The notes beneath the pieces were generated by a model. The model was not told where the DNA came from. It saw only the letters and a program-made list of their open reading frames with translations, and made no database searches. From Deltaproteobacteria bacterium (GTDB taxonomy: Bacteria > Desulfobacterota > Dissulfuribacteria > Dissulfuribacterales > DYLC01): DNA of 64,000 bases. Within the stretch, counting starts at the first letter, position 1; each line of letters starts with the position of its first letter. The stretch spans positions 186,001 through 250,000 of the forward strand of contig JAQVIJ010000003.1 of NCBI GenBank assembly GCA_028695735.1, given 5' to 3'. This document shows positions 59,760 through 64,000 of this stretch, in pieces. Both the position numbers and the translations under genes were made by a program.

Positions 59760-61571
59760 TTATGGGTTGTCACCTGCTTTTATTTTTCCTTGTCTGCAGG
59801 CAGGCATGGGCTCATTGGGTCTCCAGTTGGCCATCACCGAGTCATTGAAGTCCTTGTGGCAGGAAAGGCAGAGCCCCACATACAAAATGCGGTTCAATTC
59901 CTGGGCATTAAATGGCCTCAGGCCTGGTCTGGAGGTGTGAACCAGTGAGTCCCCCTGAATGTTCACAAAGCTGTCTGTGGCCTGTTTGGGGGTTGAGTTA
60001 GGGAGCTGCATGGCAGGCGTAAAGTGCCACTGGCCGTTTTTGAAACTGAGGTTTCCGGTCCCCAGCCCAAGGGCCCTTGGGTCTATGTGACACTCACTGC
60101 AGGTACGGCCCTTTTTTTGAGTGGTGTGAGGGTCCATTTTGGAGACCGTAAAACGCACAAATTCCTGCTCTTGTCTGCCCCTTTCATCCAGAAAGGAGAC
60201 CAGGTCCTGTCAGCCAGGCACCAATACCACTATCTCCTTGGAGTTGTCTCTTTTTTCCAATACGCCCAATGGCGGGACCTCATGGCGTATGAAGCCTCGA
60301 AACTCCTGCCAAAGCCCGAGGGTGTTTCGTGCGCTTACCTTGTCCAATTGTTCCTCGGCCTTTTTATAGCGCACATGACAGCCATAGCACTGGGGCACCC
60401 ATGTGCTGTGACAGGCCTGACATGAGAGGTTTTTGTGCACCGGCCGTGTGCAGTCCTGGGCTGGTGGCTTGAGTTCATGCCTTTTCTCATTCATTTTTGT
60501 CTTGAGGTACAGGCCGTTTTCGTCCTTTTCAAGGGAGAGACGGGGCCACAGAGGGGTCCTTTTGCCCTTTGGGTAATAGGAATTGTCCTTGGAGGCCTCA
60601 AAAATGAGCTCTAATATGGGGCGCTGAGTGTGACAGTGTTCGCAGCGCACCTCCAATTGTTCCTCCAGATGGGCGTGCCTTTGGCCGTCTCCCATGACCT
60701 CGCGTTGCGTGTGGCAGTCGATACAGACCATGCCTGCCTTGTGATGAATATCCTCCGGAAATTTGCGATAGAACCTGCCGTCCGCCAGGGTGTCTGATTT
60801 GAGTTTGCCTGCCTCAAAGGGCACTCCATACCCCTCGGATTCGTAGATGCCTTGATAGGAGAGCCCGATACGGCCGCTGCGATTGTGACAGCGCACACAG
60901 TTTTCCATGGGGATCTTTTTTATGATCTGCGGATGCCATTCCTCTTTTTTGCCACCCTTTGCCAGAAACTCCTCTTTGGTGCCCGTAAAGTGACAGGCAG
61001 TGCAGCCACCGCCCTTTTGGGCCATAAAGTCAGGTAACTTGCCCTTTTCCACCCATAGGTGACAGCTTCCGCAGAGTTTTCTGAAATAATCCACGGCATG
61101 TGTGTGGGTATTGAATGCCGCTATGGACTCTATGGAGATATCCTCGTTGCGGTCAGGGTATTCGCCCCAATAGTAGCGCAGGGTGGAAAGGATGCCGCGA
61201 TTTGTGGCCATGAGGGAGTTTTTGCTCCATTTGATCTGTCTGGTATGACAGCCGGCTTGTCCGCAGGTGCGTTCCACGAACTTGAGCTCCCCTGGGTTTT
61301 TAACCATGCCGCGATGGGCATCCAACTTGTTCGCGGATAGGGCATTTCCCAAGTGACAGAATGCGCAGCCGAACTCCCTGCCGTGTGCCTTGTCGGGTTT
61401 TTCCTGGTGGCAACCCAAGCACATGTCCACCTGGCCGGGTTTTGTGAGGGTTACGGTCTGAGGGGCCTTTTCAGCCGCATGACTAAATGCAAAAAGGCTT
61501 GAGATTACAAGAAAAATACATACAAAAGGCCCTTTAACCAAAGAAGCATATGAAAGCAGGGCCTTTTGCAT
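59760..61571 (-). CDS. Dodecaheme c-type cytochrome with an in-frame TGA, predicted selenoprotein
   Basis: Exported (FVCIFLVISSLFAFSHAAEK) electron-transfer protein, 603 residues if the TGA at 60210-60212 is read through. Heme sites in order: CLGCH, CAFCH, CGQAGCH (a CX4CH site), CGSCH, CTACH, CVRCH, CIDCH, CEHCH, CQACH, CYGCH, then after the TGA CSECH and CLSCH; eleven CxxCH plus one CX4CH. The frame stays open for 149 more codons after the TGA (codon 454) without a shift, reading ...KEIVVLVPG-TGA-QDLVSFLDERG. An 8-bp hairpin with loop UGGAU starts 11 nt after the TGA. It lies 13 bp after speE. If read as a plain stop, the product would be a 453-residue decaheme protein. The electron partner is unknown. 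Confidence 0.82.
60178..60198 (-). promoter_or_regulatory. Predicted bacterial SECIS hairpin
   Basis: On the coding (minus) strand CTCCTTTC (60198-60191) pairs with GAAAGGGG (60185-60178), including one T-G pair, around the loop TGGAT. The first stem base is exactly 11 nt after the TGA, the spacing of the E. coli fdhF element, and the loop carries a G among its first two bases. The bulged U of fdhF is absent. Confidence 0.7.
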
Positions 61572-61584
61572 GGCATTGTTTCCT

Positions 61585-62433
61585 TCAGCTTACAGCCTGC
61601 TTGAAAAAGGCAGGCAGATCAAAGACGCTGCGCAGAAGCTCGGGAGTCATGTATTTTAGAGGCATCGAGGCCATGCGTTGCTTGGCCTTTTTCAAATTCA
61701 TGTCCGTTAGTGGGTCATATTTTTTGCTGGCCATGACCCAGCTCCACATGCCGCTGGGATAGGTGGGCACAAAGCCCCAGTAGAAACGAACGATGGGGAA
61801 ACCCGCCGCCTTCAGGTTGTTTTGCATGGCCTTCAAAATCTCCATGTCGTAAAACGGGGATTCGGACTGGGCTACCAGAATGCCGTCTTCCTTGAGGCTT
61901 GCAAGGCATTTTTTGTAGAAATCCGCCTGAAACAGGCCTACGGCAGGCCCAATGGGGTCTGTGGAGTCCACCAGAATCACATCAAAGCGAGTCTGATTCT
62001 CCTCCATGAACTGAACCCCGTCTCTTACCTGAACCTCAACCCTTGGATTTCCTGTGAGCTCGCAGGCAATTTGCGGAAAAAAGCGTTTACAGGTCTCTAT
62101 CACCAGGCCGTCTATCTCGCAGAGCACGGCCTTTTTTACTGTATCATGCCTTACCACCTCGCGAATGGCGCCGCCATCCCCTCCGCCTATGACCAGCACC
62201 TGTTCAGGGTTTGAGTGTAAAAACATGGCGGGGTGCACCAGCAGCTCATGGTATGTCCACTCATCCCTGTCCGTGGTCATGAACAGGCCGTCTAACAGCA
62301 GCACTCGGCCAAATGCCTCTGTATCCAGTACCTGAATCCTTTGATACTTGGATTCGCTTACAAACAGGGTCTCTTTTACCTTGAGGCTGAAGCCTATGGT
62401 GTTGTGATGATATTCAGTGAACCAGAGTTCCAT
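61585..62433 (-). CDS. speE: Polyamine aminopropyltransferase (spermidine synthase)
   Basis: 282 residues. Transfers an aminopropyl group from decarboxylated SAM to putrescine (or another diamine). SpeE signatures: [39 protein letters not shown], the SAM-binding [18 protein letters not shown] and the catalytic Asp region [14 protein letters not shown]. No speD in the window. First gene of the leftward group with the multiheme cytochrome. Confidence 0.95.
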
Positions 62434-63454: not shown

Positions 63455-64000
63455 ATGATTGGGCTGTTTAGAGTTTTTCTGGTGCTCTCTTCGCTTTTGT
63501 TCTCGCATTCACTTTGGGCGAACGAAGCCTGTTTTATCGAGGACGCAGTGGTGGCCGAGTCCAATGCCGATACGCCGCAGCTCTCCACAGCAGAGTTTAA
63601 AAAGGCCATAAAAGACGGCCTGTTGGTGCTGGATAACCGTCCATACAAGGAATGGGCCGTCAGTCATATCCCTGGTGCCATTGTGGTTGCGCCCAAGCCA
63701 GGCGTGAGCAAGGCACTTTACACTTCAGATGTGGCGGAGGTCAAACGCATTGTCAACGAAGATAAGACAAGGCCCATCGTGCTCTATTGTGACGGTATTT
63801 ACTGCGGCAAGAGCAAGCGAGTGGCTCAGGATCTGATAAAAGAAGGCTTTACTCATGTATTCCGCTATCAATTGGGAATACCTATCTGGCGGAGTCTTGG
63901 CAATCTAACTCAGTGCGAATTGGACGGCATTCGATACATCTATCAAAATGATAAGACTGCGTGGTTTATAGACAGCCGAAAGGCGGAGCTTTTTGCCAAG
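63455..64000 (+). CDS. Exported rhodanese-domain protein (3' end outside window)
   Basis: At least 182 residues. Signal sequence MIGLFRVFLVLSSLLFSHSL with likely cleavage in WANEA, then a rhodanese domain: KDGLLVLDNRPYKEWAVSHI, PGAIVV, VLYCDGIYCGKSKRVAQ with the active-site cysteine loop (CDGIYCGKS), LIKEGFTHVFRYQLGIPIW. A second start-like segment (TAWFIDSRKAELFAK) at the edge suggests a tandem second rhodanese domain. Periplasmic rhodaneses of this kind move sulfane sulfur in sulfur-metabolising bacteria; that role here is inferred. A purine-rich AAAGGGGGG precedes the start; a GTG at 63451 is in another frame. Confidence 0.85.
   Translation, partial: MIGLFRVFLVLSSLLFSHSLWANEACFIEDAVVAESNADTPQLSTAEFKKAIKDGLLVLDNRPYKEWAVSHIPGAIVVAPKPGVSKALYTSDVAEVKRIVNEDKTRPIVLYCDGIYCGKSKRVAQDLIKEGFTHVFRYQLGIPIWRSLGNLTQCELDGIRYIYQNDKTAWFIDSRKAELFAK

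Follow-up and report, generated by a model that had tools for sequence, protein, structure and literature searches.

A dodecaheme cytochrome gene interrupted by one TGA

The window, that is, the whole 64,000-nucleotide stretch analyzed here, carries on its minus strand a gene for an ExtM-related dodecaheme c-type cytochrome (59760-61571), delimited by translation, NCBIfam matches and comparison with orthologs. The predicted product is 603 residues long when an internal UGA is read as selenocysteine at position 454 (Sec454). The frame (61571-59760) runs from an ATG through 453 codons to a TGA (60212-60210) and then through 149 further codons to a TAA, the TGA being its sole interruption. The product contains eleven CXXCH motifs and one CX4CH motif (C103-C108-H109), which gives 12 predicted c-type hemes, and two of the CXXCH motifs are encoded 3' of the TGA. 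Translation and motif counting confirmed the first-pass annotation, which had described a dodecaheme product and a single TGA splitting a minus-strand frame that continues for 149 codons with two further heme motifs. The unusual motif corresponds to heme 3 (residues 103-109; 61265-61245, minus strand), which is CX4CH in the Sec family and CXXCH in the aligned paralogs.

A putative N-terminal signal peptide of ~32 residues (61476-61571, minus strand; MQKALLSYASLVKGPFVCIFLVISSLFAFSHA) was recognized by eye, with cleavage near SHA-AEK and a predicted helix at residues 3-29, suggesting that the cytochrome is exported to the periplasm. A Shine-Dalgarno-like AAGGA, read from the sequence (61581-61585, minus strand), precedes the ATG by 9 nt and falls at the end of speE (spermidine synthase; 61585-62433, minus strand; NCBIfam PRK00811/TIGR00417 above cut-off), which is located 13 nt upstream of the cytochrome gene. 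The neighbors of the cytochrome gene in the window are speE and a lectin-like gene. Comparison of neighbors across orthologs showed that speE is a neighbor only, outside any conserved cluster, and no conserved operon partner was found among the orthologs, whose neighbors are housekeeping or signaling genes that vary between genomes. At the window edge, a rhodanese gene (63455-64000, plus strand; complete in L183, 1456-2265) encodes a double rhodanese-like protein that is exported and similar to the N-terminal portion of TsoB, a selenoprotein; it was rejected as a TsoB-type selenoprotein, since it contains no in-frame TGA.

The structure model of the cytochrome was of moderate quality (pLDDT 72.7), lacked hemes and matched no solved fold. 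Searches of the PDB by sequence returned just weak NrfA-type matches in the heme region, and the PDB search by fold returned nothing usable because the model was heme-less.

Decoding of the internal TGA

Among 59 relatives searched, homologs with 50-60% identity and one internal TGA were present in 36 genomes of the same order. At the codon level, and with the window included, 37 distinct sequences have TGA at the column of residue 454 (60210-60212, minus strand), in the context VPG-U-QD throughout, save for a single VPG-U-ED. These make up all but two of the 39 distinct orthologs from the window's order; those two have TGT. Another 49 distinct homologs from a named genome collection, mostly from Desulfobulbia and including Desulfobulbus rhabdoformis, D. 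elongatus, Desulfogranum mediterraneum and Candidatus Electronema, all have TGC or TGT. Altogether, the homologs without TGA encode Cys at this column (82/82), and neither TAA nor TAG was seen at codon 454 among the TGA orthologs and Cys homologs inspected. The ExtM proteins above the NF040943 cut-off have PGCQ at the same column, as the first-pass annotation had stated for related cytochromes. The predicted column of Cys or Sec was found in 119 of 119 aligned superfamily members, ExtM included, where it is the sole invariant Cys outside the heme motifs. A sequencing error as the source of the TGA is excluded, because 37 distinct genes in separate genomes all carry it.

Downstream of the TGA, amino acid identity was 66-92% in nine pairs, with dN/dS values of 0.12-0.37 (eight pairs where computable) that were similar to or somewhat above those of the upstream part; judged from these sequences, purifying selection acts on the codons 3' of the TGA. 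By standard annotation the gene would terminate at the TGA, which as a real stop would leave a 453-residue, 10-heme protein followed by a decaying remnant, and the low hairpin score of a single genome (z only -0.74) would fit this. However, the 149 downstream codons are conserved with their two heme motifs and a dN/dS well below 1, 37 genes have retained TGA at a single codon where TAA and TAG are never seen, and the genome has the Sec machinery, so that a real stop is extremely improbable.

In a quick tree with several long branches, the Sec proteins fell in a clade of 39 (SH-aLRT 98) with two Cys members inside, and three changes suffice for the Sec/Cys history, most simply one gain and two losses. 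The genomes of both TGT (Cys) members retain selA, and one of them also retains a Sec-containing ExtKL; loss of the Sec machinery as the cause of these two Cys members is therefore unsupported. Since both members use Cys despite keeping selA, Sec at position 454 is dispensable.

A bacterial SECIS-type hairpin (60178-60198, minus strand) begins 11 nt 3' of the TGA, with an 8-bp stem (60198-60191/60185-60178; CTCCTTTC/GAAAGGGG) and the loop TGGAT (60190-60186), exactly as first described. As evidence for Sec, the hairpin of the single sequence failed, since 41 of 200 dinucleotide shuffles folded as well (z -0.74), but the comparison over the 37 Sec genes upheld it. In these genes the mean number of in-register pairs was 6.68 of 8, versus 5.56 in synonymous-codon shuffles (z 7.7), a conservative control, since its codon weights derive from that same region; in the 49 Cys homologs the values were 2.73 and 2.68 (z 0.6). 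Of the cells for the inner five pairs in the 37 Sec genes, 95.6% were paired, and the stem covaries, with double-sided changes in 15 cells versus 4.7 in shuffles, although the cells are not independent because the sequences are related. Every slid register of the stem was worse than the 11-nt register, and GG was present in the loops of all 37 genes. The 11-nt spacing is not strictly fixed, as the stem of two genes (L037 and L056) pairs about one base out of this register, and 7 of the 37 genes retain only ~5 stem pairs. A hairpin shortly after the UGA with a G in its apical loop is therefore a feature of the 37 genes as a set, and is not significant in the window alone.

All four sel genes that the first-pass annotation proposed to look for (selA, selB, selC and selD) were found in the source genome: selA and selB each scored above cut-off, a canonical tRNA-Sec has the anticodon UCA, and selD (contig C5, 312661-313581; L151) itself contains one in-frame TGA, its product, selenophosphate synthetase, probably being a selenoprotein as well. 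The same genome encodes an ExtKL homolog (contig C2, 606201-607487; L191, 1480-2811, plus strand; NF040886, 581 bits) with one in-frame TGA in the motif DG-U-PTP. Among the genomes of the order searched, ExtKL was found in 17, the source genome included, versus about 40 with the ExtM-related gene; dependence of the Sec cytochrome on ExtKL was rejected on this count, genome G006 of the same order, which has the TGA gene (L021), being one that lacks ExtKL.

A second SelB-like gene (contig C2, 677348-678567; L002, 622-2607, minus strand, and L010) scored 273 bits, above the selB cut-off. It is located directly 3' of a long-arm tRNA-Cys(GCA), which scored 57 bits as tRNA-Sec, and is followed by a TorD-like chaperone gene. 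The SelB-like gene and the long-arm tRNA-Cys fit the selC*/selB* pairs of other Deltaproteobacteria, and a UCA anticodon has been described for some selC* tRNA-Cys of Desulfobacterales (PMC7609411). Such a pair could in principle read the UGA of the cytochrome gene as Cys, the alternative residue in the homologs. However, the anticodon of the selC* tRNA in this genome is GCA, and UCA belongs to the separate canonical tRNA-Sec, which makes decoding as Cys very improbable.

The gene combines an in-frame UGA with conserved coding sequence downstream, Cys in homologs, a SECIS element and sel genes, as expected of bacterial selenoproteins. The findings named beforehand as speaking against Sec454, namely a lack of machinery, no Cys or Sec column in homologs, and a sequencing error, were tested and none was borne out. 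Judged from sequence comparison, selenocysteine is almost certainly inserted at residue 454 of the dodecaheme cytochrome.

Relationship to ExtM and to known selenocytochromes

Pfam yielded only generic cytochrome c7/c3 matches for the product. In NCBIfam it matched ExtM (NF040943) with 276.7 bits, below the 800-bit equivalog cut-off, and gave partial matches to ExtN and ExtO over residues 380-500. Sec-family proteins, Desulfobulbia Cys homologs, paralogs from the same order and ExtM proper can be aligned over the whole length, and the heme motifs are collinear and accompanied by the PGCQ column, which places the protein in the ExtM superfamily. It does not qualify as an ExtM equivalog, given its score under the cut-off and the lack of an ext cluster around the gene; on sequence grounds, the cytochrome is ExtM-related, not ExtM.

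ExtM from the Geobacter selenite/tellurite cluster extHIJKLMNOPQS is likewise a 12-heme cytochrome (PMC5877670), homologous over the whole length and with the PGCQ column. The window protein differs in its low score, in having Sec for Cys and CX4CH at heme 3, in the additional Cys374 and Cys592, and in the missing ext genes. The homologs from Desulfobulbia, including Candidatus Electronema, have 46-50% identity over the whole length and share the CX4CH heme, Cys374 and Cys592, but their residue 454 is Cys (TGC/TGT) and the hairpin is not conserved in them. ExtM homologs have been reported in cable bacteria, with selenocysteine not mentioned (PMC11976967). ExtN (NF040967) shares the module of residues 380-500 and differs in lacking heme motif 10 and the Cys/Sec column.

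Other Sec-containing multiheme proteins are distinct from this one. ExtKL (NF040886), a predicted Sec multiheme cytochrome, is also exported and c-type, but is about 443 aa long with the motif DGUPTP, and the window protein has no match to NF040886 (250-bit cut-off). The octaheme cytochrome of the tetrathionate-reductase family (TIGR04315) and the GSU2204 family (NF041027) are likewise Sec-containing CXXCH proteins (PMC13188914), but the window protein matched neither in the NCBIfam scan.

Cys-containing ExtM-like paralogs with 33-39% identity are present in several genomes of the order (L059-L067; for example L188, 9241-11169). In one genome, such a paralog is located a few genes away from what, by eye, looks like a gene for a molybdoenzyme of the tetrathionate/polysulfide-reductase type. 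A distant ExtM-like multiheme protein, with an uncertain start, is also encoded in the source genome (contig C8, 105989-106744; L184, 1677-3887, plus strand). In the contig search for relatives a single-sequence query found none and an alignment query succeeded. No relatives of the cytochrome were found in viral contigs, plasmids or PHROGs.

The first-pass annotation had been uncertain whether such a selenocytochrome had been described. The kind is known: an inventory from 2026, covering 119 families and subfamilies of prokaryotic selenoproteins, includes ExtKL, the GSU2204-family CXXCH protein and the octaheme cytochrome of the tetrathionate-reductase family, while an ExtM-type protein is absent from it (PMC13188914). 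A full-text search of the open literature for ExtM together with selenoprotein returned only the Geobacter ExtI paper, in which ExtKL, not ExtM, is the selenoprotein (PMC5877670). The ExtM-type Sec cytochrome adds a selenoprotein family absent from the searched catalog and open papers.

Possible role of residue 454

In the 119 aligned sequences, columns 121, 293 and 374 hold Met, His or Cys depending on the subfamily, and column 454 holds only Cys or Sec. The three variable columns are presumed, from this pattern, to be axial heme ligands. In seven of seven ext clusters, ExtN has neither heme motif 10 (EYGTF or a similar sequence stands in place of CYGCH) nor the column-454 Cys. The simplest reading is a joint function of Cys/Sec454 and heme 10, with a reactive selenol or thiol favored over a plain ligand. 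In the window protein, motif 10 (CYGCH, residues 395-399; 60375-60389, minus strand) is hence the proposed partner of Sec454.

In the favored explanation, the UGA is almost certainly decoded by SelB and tRNA-Sec(UCA) with the aid of the hairpin 11 nt downstream, so that selenocysteine replaces the invariant non-heme Cys of the ExtM superfamily (residue 454, PGCQ); sequence comparison strongly supports this step. In the proposed mechanism, the selenol of Sec454 would lie beside heme 10 (C395-C398-H399) and bind the sulfur or selenium atom of a substrate such as polysulfide, thiosulfate, sulfite or a selenite-like compound. The chain of hemes would carry electrons to or from the bound substrate, as periplasmic electron transfer in sulfur metabolism. 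Taken as a whole, the explanation of a Sec-bearing ExtM-superfamily cytochrome is very likely. As to the mechanism, the probability that the selenol beside heme 10 would be a reactive nucleophile or substrate-binding group, and not a plain axial ligand, is put a little short of even, and a sulfur or selenium compound is suggested somewhat more tentatively as the substrate; neither a conserved operon among the orthologs nor a solved relative in the PDB points to one.

Sec454 could instead be an axial ligand of heme iron, forming a selenolate-ligated heme c that tunes the potential, with electron transfer only and no catalysis. The family has only ~7 invariant His outside the motifs for 12 hemes, the sulfur enzymes TsdA, SoxA and DsrJ have a Cys-ligated heme c, and the joint absence of heme motif 10 and Cys454 from ExtN would also fit ligation. 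However, His, Met and Cys replace one another in the other presumed ligand columns and never do so in column 454 across 119 sequences, and plain ligation gives no clear reason for a tolerance restricted to Cys and Sec, which leaves an axial ligand as a somewhat unlikely candidate.

A structural or protective role, in which Sec454 forms a selenenylsulfide redox switch with the C-terminal Cys592, is in turn quite improbable. Cys592 is conserved in 34 of the 37 Sec sequences and in 49 of 50 from Desulfobulbia, but bona fide ExtM and the paralogs have Cys454 and no Cys592, so that residue 454 functions there without it, and the confidence of the model is low near residue 592. Largely confined to the Sec and Desulfobulbia groups and absent from ExtM, Cys592 is not required for the basic chemistry.

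Dissulfurimicrobium hydrothermale Sh68 is an obligate sulfur disproportionator (PMC8780430), and Dissulfuribacterales is used as the order name for Dissulfuribacter and Dissulfurirhabdus (PMC7478628); we infer that the window belongs to the order that holds Dissulfurimicrobium, and read Dissulfuribacterales as its name. In a speculative and rather unlikely extension of the catalytic reading, a Sec-dependent cytochrome would operate across this order with its obligate sulfur disproportionators, the heme-adjacent selenol would perform the initial reaction with elemental sulfur, polysulfide or a different chalcogen, and the invariant Cys of ExtM-type proteins would be the same site.

Annotation that takes the UGA as a stop truncates the ExtM-related Sec genes by about 150 codons. 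The comparison pinpoints the one residue outside the heme motifs that never changes in the ExtM superfamily, where evolution exchanges only Cys and Sec. A fixed Cys or Sec, possibly adjacent to a heme, offers a concrete active-site hypothesis for the ExtM-type cytochromes of Geobacter, cable bacteria and sulfur disproportionators.
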